From an uncultured Gammaproteobacteria bacterium (lineage in GTDB: Bacteria > Pseudomonadota > Gammaproteobacteria > Arenicellales > JAANXG01): a stretch of 64,000 nt of DNA. Where the stretch lies: contig CAMYKW010000002.1 of NCBI GenBank assembly GCA_947259175.1, positions 93,254 to 157,253 on the forward strand, in the 5' to 3' direction. The translations under genes and the position numbers were made by a program. The stretch's first letter is position 1. Each line of letters begins with the position of its first letter. Below, in pieces: positions 28,099 to 31,919 of this stretch. The notes under the pieces are model-generated. The model did not search any database. It had not been told where the DNA came from and saw nothing but the letters and a program-made list of their open reading frames with translations.

Positions 28099-28950
28099 TC
28101 AGGCGGTGAGCTGGTCCTTCATTGCATTCAGCGCGCGTTTCTCGATCTGCCGGATGCGTTCCGCCGAGACGCCATACTCCTCGGCAAGCTCATGCAGCGT
28201 CGATTTCGGATCTTTCAACCACCGGCGCTGAATAATGACACGGCTGCGTTCGTCCAGTTTGTCCAGTGACGCTTCGAGTCGTTCGCGGCGCTCCGCCTCA
28301 TTGTCGGCGGCGCTGGCCAAACGTTCAGGATTGTAGCGCATGTCCGGTAAATATCCGGCGGGGGACATCACCGACCCGTCTTCGTCACCGTCGTCATAAC
28401 CGTCGAAGGACACATCGGCGCTGCTCATGCGCGATTCCATCTCTTGTACGGTTTCCGCGGGAACATCCAGCTGGTCGGCCAGCGCCTCCACCTCATCCGG
28501 GTTCAACCACCCCAGATGATTTTTCGACTTGCGCAGGTTAAAAAACAACTTGCGTTGCGCCTTGGTGGTCGCGACCTTTACGATCCGCCAGTTACGCAGC
28601 ACGAAATCATAGATTTCGGCGCGTATCCAATGCACCGCAAACGACACCAAACGCACTTTTCGCTTGGGGTCGAAGTTTTTGACCGCCTTCATCAAGCCGA
28701 TATTGCCTTCTTGAACGAGGTCGGCCAGAGGTAAGCCGTAACCGGAAAAACCCCGCGCCACGCGCACCACATAGCGTAGATGCGACATCACCAGCTCCCG
28801 CGCCGCATCCAGGTCGCCGTGGGTACGGTAACGCACCGCCAGTTCATGCTCGCGTTCGCTGCTGAGCATGGGCACCGCGTTCACCGCCTGCATATAGCTC
28901 GCCAGGCCCTGATTGGTGATGTCCAGGGGGATCGGCAGATTGTGGGTCAT
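28099..28950 (-). CDS. rpoH: Heat-shock sigma factor RpoH (sigma-32)
   Basis: 283-residue RNA polymerase sigma factor. Region 2 is clear (DLVQEGNIGLMKAVKNFDP, VRLVSFAVHWIRAEIYDFVLRNW). The RpoH box QRKLFFNLRKSK identifies it as sigma-32, not RpoD or RpoS. Region 4 ends with STLHELAEEYGVSAERIRQIEKRAL. An ATG at 28962 is in frame, but GGAG lies 6 bases before the ATG at 28950, which gives MTHNLPIPLD and nearly the E. coli length (284), so 28950 is preferred. A perfect CIRCE element lies 30 bases upstream, and the ftsX stop just beyond that, as in the ftsYEX-rpoH order of E. coli. Confidence 0.97.
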   Translation of the reverse strand: MTHNLPIPLDITNQGLASYMQAVNAVPMLSSEREHELAVRYRTHGDLDAARELVMSHLRYVVRVARGFSGYGLPLADLVQEGNIGLMKAVKNFDPKRKVRLVSFAVHWIRAEIYDFVLRNWRIVKVATTKAQRKLFFNLRKSKNHLGWLNPDEVEALADQLDVPAETVQEMESRMSSADVSFDGYDDGDEDGSVMSPAGYLPDMRYNPERLASAADNEAERRERLEASLDKLDERSRVIIQRRWLKDPKSTLHELAEEYGVSAERIRQIEKRALNAMKDQLTA

Positions 28951-28980
28951 AGGTTTCTCCATGTCTTTACGGTAGTGATT

Positions 28981-29007
28981 TTAGCACTCAGAAAGTTAGA
29001 GTGCTAA
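28981..29007. promoter_or_regulatory. CIRCE element (HrcA operator) upstream of rpoH
   Basis: TTAGCACTC (28981-28989), nine bases, then GAGTGCTAA (28999-29007): an exact match to the CIRCE consensus bound by the heat-shock repressor HrcA. It sits between ftsX and rpoH, 30 bases before the preferred rpoH start and 18 before the upstream ATG, where a bound repressor would block rpoH transcription. CIRCE normally lies before groESL or hrcA-dnaK operons, neither of which is in this window. Confidence 0.95.
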
Positions 29008-29046
29008 CACGGCGGAAAGTTCCGGTTTTATTGGGCTTCTGCGAGT

Positions 29047-29961
29047 CTAGGTAGGCTGCATGGCGCGCAGATGACGGCCCACCGACCAACGTGACGCGAG
29101 CCATCCCAGGCCGACTCCTATCGCCACGATGATCAGGGACTCCGGCAGGCTCAACCCCGCCACGCGGAACGCGCTGCCGTATAAATTCGCTAACACCTGT
29201 ATCGGCGGTCGCAGCAGATGCACGCACAGTGCAATGAGCACAATCGCCATCCAGGCGCCGAGAAGTCCTTGCAGCATGCCGTTATACAGGAATGGGCGGC
29301 GAATGAAGCGGTCGGTGCCGCCGATCAGCCGAATGATCTCGATTTCCTCGCGGCGGTTGAGAATCGCCAGGCGAATGGTATTGGAAACAATCAGCAACAC
29401 CGCCAAAGCCAGTAATACCGACAGCACAATCAACGCCCGGCGGATGAGTTTCAGGATCACATGAAAACGCTGCACCCATTCCATGTCCAGCTGCGCCAGC
29501 TCGACGGCGGTAAGCGAGCGAAGCTCGACGAGCAGTTGTTCCAGGAGCTCGGGCTGCTCATATCGGGGTTCGGGAATGATTACCAACAGGGTCGGCAGCG
29601 GGTTTGCCGGAAGCGCGTCGAGCGCGTCGCCAAAACCGGAGAGTTCCTTGAATTCGGCCAGTGCCTGCTCCGAGCTGACTATGCGCACTTGATTGACGTC
29701 CGCGCGATCGACCAGCGCCGTTGCCAGACTTTGCGCTTGCTCTGCGGTTACGCCGGCGCGAAGAAATAGTGAAACATGAGTGCCGCCGTGCCATTCGCTG
29801 CTTACCCTTTCCGCGTTGGCCACCAACAGGTACAGCAGTCCTGGCAGGGCCAGAGTGATGCCGATCACCCCCACCGACATCAACGTGGAGCCGGGCATGC
29901 GCGCCAGTTGCCCGATGCTGGACAACAGCACCTGGGCATGCCGGAGCAGGTACGCCCTCAT
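29047..29961 (-). CDS. ftsX: Cell division protein FtsX
   Basis: 304-residue integral membrane protein with the FtsX layout: cytoplasmic N terminus, one helix (about 28-48), a periplasmic domain (~50-175) and three further helices (about 178-205, 228-255, 270-290). The conserved segment RREEIEIIRLIGGTDRFIRRPFLYNGMLQGLLGA couples to the ATPase. With FtsE it controls periplasmic amidases at the division site. Its start overlaps the ftsE stop by 4 bases. Confidence 0.95.
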   Translation of the reverse strand: MRAYLLRHAQVLLSSIGQLARMPGSTLMSVGVIGITLALPGLLYLLVANAERVSSEWHGGTHVSLFLRAGVTAEQAQSLATALVDRADVNQVRIVSSEQALAEFKELSGFGDALDALPANPLPTLLVIIPEPRYEQPELLEQLLVELRSLTAVELAQLDMEWVQRFHVILKLIRRALIVLSVLLALAVLLIVSNTIRLAILNRREEIEIIRLIGGTDRFIRRPFLYNGMLQGLLGAWMAIVLIALCVHLLRPPIQVLANLYGSAFRVAGLSLPESLIIVAIGVGLGWLASRWSVGRHLRAMQPT

Positions 29962-30629
29962 CCTATGGACGCTCCATCGTGAACCAGTCGGCCATCTTTC
30001 AACTCCAATACCGGCTTATTCAACCTTTGAATATGGCGTCGTTCGTGGGTGGCGATGATTACGGTAACCCCGTACTGATTGAATTGGTGGAACAAATCCA
30101 TGATCTCATCCGAGAGTTGCGCATCCAGATTGCCGGTGGGTTCGTCGGCAAGGAGTAGCGGCGGCCGGTTCACCACCGCCCGCGCGATACCCACCCGTTG
30201 CTGCTCGCCGCCGGATAAGGTGATGGGGTAGAGCCGCTCTTTGCCCAGCAGGCCGACTTTGTCCAGCGCGGCGCGAACGCGCCGCCCGGTTTCCCGGTGA
30301 CCGACACCCGATACCACCAGCGGTAAGGCCACATTGTCGAACACCGTACGATCATGGAGTAACTTGTGATCCTGAAAGATGACGCCGACCTCACGGCGAA
30401 AATATGGGATCTGCCGGTGTGGCAGTTTGACCAGATTCCTGCTATTGACCACGATCTGCCCGTGGGTGCTGCGTTCCACCAGGGTAATGAGCTTTAGCAG
30501 GGTGCTTTTTCCCGCACCCGAATGGCCGACCAGAAACGCCATATGCTGCCTCTCGAGCGTGAAGCTGATCCGCCTTAAGGCTTCGTGTCCGTTGGGGTAA
30601 CGTTTTGAGACTTGGCTGAAGCGAATCAT
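29958..30629 (-). CDS. ftsE: Cell division ATP-binding protein FtsE
   Basis: 223-residue ABC ATPase: Walker [15 protein letters not shown]-loop [24 protein letters not shown], signature [16 protein letters not shown], Walker [13 protein letters not shown] and switch His in IATHERRHI. It pairs with FtsX, which it overlaps by 4 bases (ATGA). The 135-base gap to ftsY may hold a promoter, though I could not define one. Confidence 0.96.
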
Positions 30630-30764: not shown

Positions 30765-31763
30765 CTACGCCGGTGCGCCGGGCCGCTGCAACGACTCCGC
30801 GTCGGGCAACAGGGCGTCGATGAATTGCGCGGTGTTGAACGGCCGCAAATCGTCCGGCCCCTCGCCGACGCCGATAAATCTCACCGGCAGCGCAAATTTG
30901 TCCGCGATCGCCAATAGAATTCCTCCTTTGGCGGTTCCGTCGAGCTTGGTGAGGCACAGGCTGTCCACTTGCACCGCCTGATGAAAATGTTGCAGTTGCG
31001 ACAACGCGTTTTGCCCGGTGCCGGCGTCCAGGACTTGTACGATCTCATGCGGCGCCTCGGGATCCAGTTTATTCAAGACCCGCTTTATCTTGATCAGCTG
31101 ATTCATCAGGTCGCTCTGGGTGTGCTGTCTACCTGCGGTGTCGATCATCAACACGTCCGTCGATCGGGCACGGGCGGAAACCAAGGCGTCGTGGGCCACC
31201 GCGGCGGCGTCCGCGTCCTGCCCCTGGGATATCACCGGAACCTGCAGACGCTCGCCCCAGCGGGTCAGTTGCTCCACGGCAGCGGCACGATAGGTGTCGC
31301 CGGCCGCCAGCATTACAGTTCGCTCCTGTTGCAGCAGCCAGTGGGTGATCTTGGCGATGGTGGTGGTTTTGCCGACACCGTTCACGCCGACAATCAACAT
31401 TACGTAGGGACGCCCGTCGAACGGCAGCGATTTCCCGCACGGCTCCAGGATTACCGTCATCTCTTCCCGAATCGCGGCGATTAAATCGCCGGCGCTGTTC
31501 AAGTTTTGCCGTTGGGAAACATCGCGTAGGTGATCGATGATCTTCGTACTCGGACCCACGCCGAGGTCGGCGCTCACCAGCAAGTCCTCGAGATCCTCGA
31601 ACAAGCTCGGATCGAGGGTCTCCGAGCCGCGAAAAAGGCCCGACAAACCGCGCGTGAGCGCATTGCGTGTCTTGGACAATCGCTCACGCAGATTACTCGG
31701 TCCGGGCGGGGAACTCTTTAGCTTATTCTCGGTCTTTTTGGTGTTACGAAACAGTGGCGGCAT
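30765..31763 (-). CDS. ftsY: Signal recognition particle receptor FtsY
   Basis: 332-residue GTPase that docks SRP-bound ribosomes at the membrane. NG domain: N region RERLSKTRNALTRGLSGLF, G1 GVNGVGKTTTIAKI, DTYRAAAVEQL, G3 DTAGRQHTQ, G4 TKLDGTAKGG and GVGEGPDDLRPF. The acidic A domain of E. coli FtsY is almost absent; only a ~30-residue basic N-terminal tail precedes the N domain. ATG 31763 (MPPLFRNTKK) is chosen over an upstream in-frame ATG because the extra residues look unlike the family. Confidence 0.95.
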   Translation of the reverse strand: MPPLFRNTKKTENKLKSSPPGPSNLRERLSKTRNALTRGLSGLFRGSETLDPSLFEDLEDLLVSADLGVGPSTKIIDHLRDVSQRQNLNSAGDLIAAIREEMTVILEPCGKSLPFDGRPYVMLIVGVNGVGKTTTIAKITHWLLQQERTVMLAAGDTYRAAAVEQLTRWGERLQVPVISQGQDADAAAVAHDALVSARARSTDVLMIDTAGRQHTQSDLMNQLIKIKRVLNKLDPEAPHEIVQVLDAGTGQNALSQLQHFHQAVQVDSLCLTKLDGTAKGGILLAIADKFALPVRFIGVGEGPDDLRPFNTAQFIDALLPDAESLQRPGAPA

Positions 31764-31919
31764 CCAGGATTGATAGCTACAAACGTCAACATCGTTATAT
31801 CGTATCATGCCCCCGGTGAAACGGCAGTGTATACAGATTGGTTACCATCTGTTAACAGTGGTTAAGGCCAAACTGTGACAGTGCTAACATCGCGGCGCGT
31901 CCCTGGAAATTGAATCAAT

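Follow-up and report, generated by a model that had tools for sequence, protein, structure and literature searches.

Control of the heat-shock response by the repressor HrcA and its operator CIRCE is classically control of the groESL and dnaK operons, in Bacillus subtilis and in many other bacteria, and it is usual to present HrcA and sigma-32 as alternatives to each other in the heat-shock response. In Escherichia coli the sigma-32 gene, rpoH, is controlled mainly after transcription. The closest described system to the one reported here is that of Geobacter sulfurreducens, for which a perfect CIRCE was predicted at -51 from rpoH, with further CIRCEs at hrcA-grpE-dnaK-dnaJ and groESL (Rodionov et al. 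2004, PMC545781). These are the same kinds of CIRCE target that we find in the genome studied here, however in the accessible portions of that paper the prediction concerns one delta-proteobacterium, with no rpoH CIRCE listed for G. metallireducens or Desulfuromonas (Table 8), and it comes without the promoter layout and the co-occurrence across families that form part of the present analysis. Permina and Gelfand (2003, cited in PMC545781) by its title deals with the same two regulons in the same class and may already list rpoH CIRCEs.

In the open-licence literature, as far as its accessible text goes, we found no report of a gammaproteobacterial HrcA-rpoH wiring or of a composite promoter of the kind described below, and neither is described in the accessible portions of PMC3224663, PMC13377108, PMC12194929 and PMC10490939. 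A study of Xylella suggested HrcA for the repression of groESL and reported induction of rpoH, with no HrcA-rpoH link in its accessible text, and the main text of a 2026 promoter model for Gammaproteobacteria has no rpoH, HrcA or CIRCE. The operator and its repressor are therefore what is already known; what we have found no report of is their wide and conserved wiring onto the sigma-32 gene and the unusual promoter-in-operator form that it takes.

The window, that is the whole stretch of 64,000 nucleotides analysed, carries rpoH directly downstream of ftsY, ftsE and ftsX on the minus strand (Table 1). A pattern scan of the 64-kb window for TTAGCACTC-N9-GAGTGCTAA gave a match with 0 mismatches at 28981-29007, which is the only CIRCE match in the window even when 3 mismatches are allowed; in 100 shuffles there were 0 matches, which rules out a chance match as the origin of the site. 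Reading along the minus strand, ftsX is followed by 39 bases, the CIRCE, 18 bases, an in-frame ATG (28962) and, 12 bases on from that, a second ATG at 28950. The longest rpoH open reading frame begins at the first of these, 18 bases from the CIRCE, yet the second is the likelier start because GGAG stands 6 bases before it, and eleven rpoH sites of relatives have a GGAG a few bases ahead of an ATG in about the same place. An earlier note on this DNA had placed a perfect CIRCE between ftsX and rpoH, at a distance of 30 bases from the probable start of rpoH, and both statements hold, with the two neighbouring genes scoring over their TIGR cut-offs and ATG 28950 preceded by GGAG. No transcription terminator of ftsX was found in 28900-29100.

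Table 1. Annotated and predicted features around the CIRCE site (positions in the window)
Feature	Position	Strand	Basis or remark
rpoH, sigma-32	28099..28950	-	TIGR02392 386.6 bits, cut-off 323.1 (ORF from 28962)
Ribosome-binding sequence GGAG	28957..28960	-	6 bases before ATG 28950; sequence
Predicted extended sigma-70-type -10, TGCTAAAAT	28978..28986	-	right CIRCE arm plus AAT
Predicted HrcA operator CIRCE	28981..29007	.	perfect palindrome, 9-base spacer
Predicted sigma-E -10, TCTAA	28996..29000	-	end of left arm plus spacer, 16 bases after -35
Sigma-70 -35-like TTAGCA	29002..29007	-	first CIRCE bases; promoter scanner
Predicted sigma-E -35, GGAACTT	29017..29023	-	exact match
ftsX, gene upstream of rpoH	29047..29961	-	TIGR00439 343 bits, cut-off 255
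ftsE	29958..30629	-	TIGR02673 290 bits, cut-off 264.85
ftsY	30765..31808	-	TIGR00064 317.2 bits, cut-off 260.7

The RpoH equivalog model TIGR02392 is exceeded, which places the product with sigma-32; the version starting at 28950 has sigma-70 regions 2 and 4 (Pfam), and the translation contains QRKLFFNLRK, which we take to be the RpoH box. There is one rpoH match in the genome at E <=1e-60. The earlier note had asked for hrcA to be sought elsewhere in the genome, and it is present there in one copy (TIGR00331, 328.2 bits against a cut-off of 197.2), encoding a protein with the winged-helix and C-terminal HrcA domains (Pfam). Within 3 mismatches the whole genome has exactly three CIRCE places, at rpoH, at hrcA (L002), which thus has a CIRCE of its own, and at groES-groEL (L003), so that HrcA is predicted to act on rpoH, on groESL and on hrcA together with its operon. 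Behind hrcA lies a frame that runs off the end of L002 and has no NCBIfam match at 1e-15; by eye it is grpE-like, and we do not claim it as grpE. The genome also encodes RpoE (TIGR02939, 318.6 bits, cut-off 236.15), and the next frames carry RseA and RseB domains, giving rpoE-rseA-rseB. Operator, repressor family and groESL target are those of the classical HrcA/CIRCE systems; the difference is that here the operator also stands on the gene of the other heat-shock regulator.

The spread of this arrangement was followed in two sets of genomes. The nearest-relative set comprises 31 genomes, the own genome and 30 relatives; a CIRCE with <=1 mismatch lies upstream of 30/30 rpoH genes, own genome included, and the 31st genome (G024) has no rpoH match. 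The class sample comprises 149 Gammaproteobacteria genomes, one per family and >=85% complete. That the class is this one is indicated by three loci with 551 bases identical to named contigs, of which L004 and L073 are gammaproteobacterial. At E <=1e-60 rpoH was found in 138 of the 149, the 11 without it (8 of these with hrcA) being left out, and at E <=1e-20 hrcA was found in 112 of the 149 (four being partial matches below the cut-off). In all 138 genomes up to ~500 bases before rpoH were scanned and the best CIRCE scored; one of the two rpoH copies of G129 has 308 upstream bases only.

Among class genomes with hrcA a CIRCE with <=3 mismatches precedes rpoH in 96/104 (52 perfect, 32 with one mismatch), as against 6/34 of those without hrcA, and a mirrored CIRCE pattern used as control was found in 0/138 at <=3 mismatches. 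The operator is conserved with rpoH and tied to the presence of the repressor (Fisher p ~2e-16 for co-occurrence, with one genome per family and kinship ignored). The phylum draw brought in another 18 genomes of the class, which do not count as independent because they represent few families; among them a CIRCE was found at rpoH in 2/2 with hrcA and 0/16 without. A scan of the rpoH upstream regions of relatives had been proposed in the earlier note; what it returns, in the nearest relatives and in the hrcA-bearing families alike, goes beyond that note, since the CIRCE-rpoH wiring appears to be near-general in the sampled gammaproteobacterial families that keep HrcA.

There are exceptions on both sides. 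Eight of the 104 hrcA-bearing class genomes have no rpoH CIRCE, and six genomes (G193, G224, G113, G217, G130 and G168) have a CIRCE at rpoH and no hrcA, none being found when these six were searched again at E <=1. Two of the six are 85-86% complete, and G224, G113, G217 and G168 are >=97% complete; an assembly gap, a recent or very recent loss of hrcA, or a diverged or other repressor that uses the site may lie behind this group. These six, with a CIRCE and no detectable repressor, are what might lead one to see the palindrome in front of rpoH as a chance product or a relic without current use. However, 0 CIRCEs arise in shuffles, 96 of the 104 families with hrcA keep the site at <=3 mismatches, and the own genome has the repressor together with its other two targets, so that we find this explanation scarcely credible.

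A second survey, of named genome contigs for the CIRCE core ahead of RpoH codons, gave at least 120 stretches, and among the matches listed 120/120 align to the RpoH of the window (tblastn), the weakest with 37.6% identity (L029). Among the matches listed are Methylocaldum, Dyella, Haliea, Parahaliea, Rheinheimera and Alishewanella, as well as Thioalkalivibrio, Plasticicumulans, Halothiobacillus, Woeseiaceae and Legionellales. Two stretches, labelled Verrucomicrobia (L009) and Rhodospirillales (L038), have an ftsX-CIRCE-rpoH arrangement like that of the window and are possibly mislabelled bins. Tandem CIRCE-like sites were also seen before rpoH, in G023 (L128) at 78492-78518 and 78523-78549 on C54, and in L097, where the two sites are 33 bases apart.

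Of the 75 genomes drawn from the phylum outside the class, 30 were scored, from 26 families and with the best-scoring rpoH copy of each. A CIRCE with <=3 mismatches precedes rpoH in 1/30, or 1/22 among the hrcA-bearing genomes, which rules out the wiring as a phylum-wide feature; within the phylum sample it is therefore mainly gammaproteobacterial. The one positive genome, G253, has hrcA and, upstream of rpoH, a CIRCE with a single mismatch; its family member G250 is without hrcA and without an rpoH CIRCE, and in G247 the rpoH CIRCE has 4 mismatches.

A variant of the operator, with the arms TTAGCAGTC and GACTGCTAA, stands at rpoH in G109 and G334 (family f22) and is symmetric in G334; single-arm versions of it are found in G215, G220, G227, G229 and G243. 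The variant arms suggest a shifted HrcA specificity in family f22. Both G109 and G334 have hrcA, and in each a search for TTAGCAGTC-N9-GACTGCTAA at up to 2 mismatches, which would also pick up a perfect canonical CIRCE, finds a single palindrome, the one at rpoH; if HrcA is kept for a target in these genomes, rpoH would be the visible one.

Sigma-E promoters have the consensus GGAACTT, 15-17 bases, TCNNA, and the window has GGAACTT-N16-TCTAA at the CIRCE, in a genome that encodes RpoE. In 28900-29100 a promoter scanner that is unaware of CIRCE picked one sigma-70-type site and no other, TTAGCA-18-TAAAAT with a TG; shuffles gave a mean of 0.1 such sites. By sequence, sigma-E-like and sigma-70-like elements thus both overlap the CIRCE arms, an operator lying on its promoters. 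The same elements recur when the 102 class sites are aligned on the CIRCE in rpoH orientation: GGAACTT at -16 to -10, T-A/C-A directly after the TC of the left arm, and A-A-T directly after the right arm. A GGAACTT of at least 5/7 at exactly -16 is found in 56/102 class sites (other offsets, mean 1.4), in 60/119 contig-scan sites among the matches listed (mean 2.4; L089 of the 120 was left out) and in 15/30 relatives (mean 0.5). With offsets of -17 to -15 allowed the counts become 67/102 for the class, 92/119 for the contig scan among the matches listed and 18/30 for the relatives, and the sigma-E promoter is therefore absent, shifted or diverged in about a third of the class sites.

The two boxes of the predicted sigma-E promoter also tend to go together. 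An exact TCTNA stands 16 bases after the -35 position in 49/102 class sites, and the last A of the -10 is present in 51/56 class sites with the -35 against 14/35 without it at the three offsets (p 4e-7), or 54/60 against 13/27 in the contig-scan sites among the matches listed (p 5e-5). A stricter test of the pairing, on T9 and A11, came out weaker, with p 0.02 in the class, 0.10 in the contig scan among the matches listed and 0.70 in the order set. As for the second promoter, the last T of the extended -10 (T29) is kept in 91/102 class rpoH sites. At positions 36-37, numbered with the first CIRCE base as 0, where a sigma-70 start would be expected, A is found in 40 and 49 of the 102 class sites and in 36 and 40 of the 119 contig-scan sites among the matches listed, a signal that is mild at best.

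CIRCEs at other genes, taken from the matches listed and from the own genome, served as controls; one locus (L328) was set aside as it has none of the five query genes nearby. Among the matches listed, GGAACTT at -16 is found in 0/32 groES sites, 1/13 hrcA sites and 6/13 rpoH sites, and T29 in 3/32, 6/13 and 13/13 respectively. These counts indicate that the extended -10 may occur at some hrcA genes and that the sigma-E part is characteristic of the sites at rpoH. The groES CIRCEs (L294-L341 and L394-L401, among the matches listed) have CTTGAC (-28 to -23) and TATNA (-5 to -1). Together these resemble a promoter of sigma-70 type, or a merged sigma-32/sigma-70 one, directly before the operator. 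In the matches listed the groES CIRCE therefore follows its putative promoter, whereas the rpoH CIRCE itself would supply the -10 elements. An rpoH CIRCE embedded in a composite sigma-E/sigma-70-like promoter is what we predict, and this again extends the earlier note.

An inverted repeat so near a start codon might instead act mainly as an RNA hairpin in the rpoH leader, a thermosensor or stability element and not a DNA operator. RNA roles of CIRCE have been proposed elsewhere, and the substitutions in the arms could be read in the same way, with a left-arm A-to-G change, which would still allow a G-U pair, in 28/102 class sites and the mirror change of the right arm in 3. The same lean is found among the control matches listed, at groES (3 against 0 of 32) and at hrcA (2 against 0 of 13), so that the asymmetry between the arms could have causes other than a right-arm promoter; as support for that promoter the asymmetry was accordingly dropped, the control numbers being small. 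What speaks against a hairpin is that the right arm has a conserved -10-like sequence, from which transcripts would begin downstream of the repeat, and that transcripts from the sigma-E promoter would include no more of the repeat than its right arm, both going by predicted starts near CIRCE positions 36-37 and 17-18 respectively. Furthermore the letters themselves, and not their pairing alone, are conserved and track hrcA. Rfam at gathering thresholds gave no match anywhere in the window, which also rules out a known RNA element as the identity of the repeat. We judge a main role as RNA hairpin to be very unlikely, and return to the palindrome as a DNA operator.

The fate of the site where hrcA is absent can be seen in three cases, picked by eye. 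G334 and G330 are congeneric. The former has hrcA and, at rpoH, the symmetric TTAGCAGTC-N9-GACTGCTAA, whereas G330 has no hrcA at E <=1e-20, three changes in the left arm at rpoH and a spacer one base longer, and its rpoH region retains GGAACTT, TCCAA and TGCTAAGAT. G170, without hrcA, has an intact TGCTAAAAT, a right arm short of one base and, as its left arm, a variant that also occurs elsewhere. G101, also without hrcA, has kept GGAACTT and TCTCA; its palindrome is broken and its second -10 changed. Over 26 hrcA-less loci without a CIRCE, a scan for sigma-E-like promoters gave no average excess over shuffles (8.12 against 7.93). The cases fit two separate selections acting on the same bases, in which HrcA would keep the palindrome and the promoters would keep their boxes.

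E. coli K-12 shares with the window the ftsY-ftsE-ftsX-rpoH order and has, upstream of rpoH, TGAACTT-N16-TCTGA, the sigma-E promoter known as P3; it differs in having no CIRCE within 3 mismatches in a 5.5 kb rpoH region and in its absence from the controls in which hrcA was found at E <=1e-20. The mainly post-transcriptional control of its rpoH also raises the question of how much an operator at this gene could do. HrcA might bind the site and merely trim basal rpoH transcription, with translation control, chaperone binding and degradation by FtsH dominating as in E. coli. Against this, the presence of the rpoH CIRCE in 96/104 hrcA-bearing families and its decay without hrcA imply selection on the site, and 5/104 hrcA-bearing class genomes have no CIRCE at <=1 mismatch besides the one at rpoH (in 9/104 a single CIRCE at <=1 mismatch stands elsewhere than at rpoH). 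A small effect on sigma-32 is a possibility to be taken seriously, if a clearly lesser one.

The reading that we prefer, with a probability of roughly 0.8, is that the palindrome functions as an operator for HrcA and that this operator lies within a composite rpoH promoter. Most likely HrcA would repress rpoH by covering both promoters, putting sigma-32 under HrcA and sigma-E together; the earlier note's reading, that sigma-32 synthesis would itself depend on HrcA, is supported, since two of the outcomes that it named as refuting, a genome without hrcA and a CIRCE not conserved at rpoH in relatives, did not come about. In the unstressed cell, HrcA on the CIRCE would block two overlapping rpoH promoters, the first of them a sigma-E promoter with its -10 in the left arm and the second an extended -10 promoter of sigma-70 type for which the right arm is the -10. 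Titration of GroE is known as a model from B. subtilis, and in the same manner misfolded protein would occupy GroEL, leaving HrcA inactive and releasing rpoH along with groESL and hrcA. Sigma-32 would then drive its own regulon, including the chaperones that restore HrcA, and so close a negative loop, whilst sigma-E would bring envelope stress to the same rpoH promoter. Binding and repression by HrcA, use of the two promoters and the nature of the inducing signal are all things that we infer.

Such a layout is likely to be ancestral in Gammaproteobacteria, with control of the E. coli type derived after the loss of hrcA. In its full form, in which rpoH was ancestrally under HrcA and sigma-E on a composite promoter whose -10s are the operator arms, and the E. 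coli scheme came from loss of hrcA, the palindrome decaying and the promoter parts staying, we regard the scenario as probable, if less secure than the function of the operator itself.

What this would mean is that two heat-shock circuits appear to be wired in series in 96/104 sampled hrcA-bearing gammaproteobacterial families, and that envelope stress, through sigma-E, apparently joins the same rpoH promoter in many of them. The combining and later separating of the two circuits becomes testable in a small reporter system made of HrcA, CIRCE and the rpoH promoter, using natural promoters of genomes that have hrcA and of others that lack it. If the reading is true, it is E. coli, the best-studied model, that departs from the rule of its class, and its arrangement looks like a later simplification.
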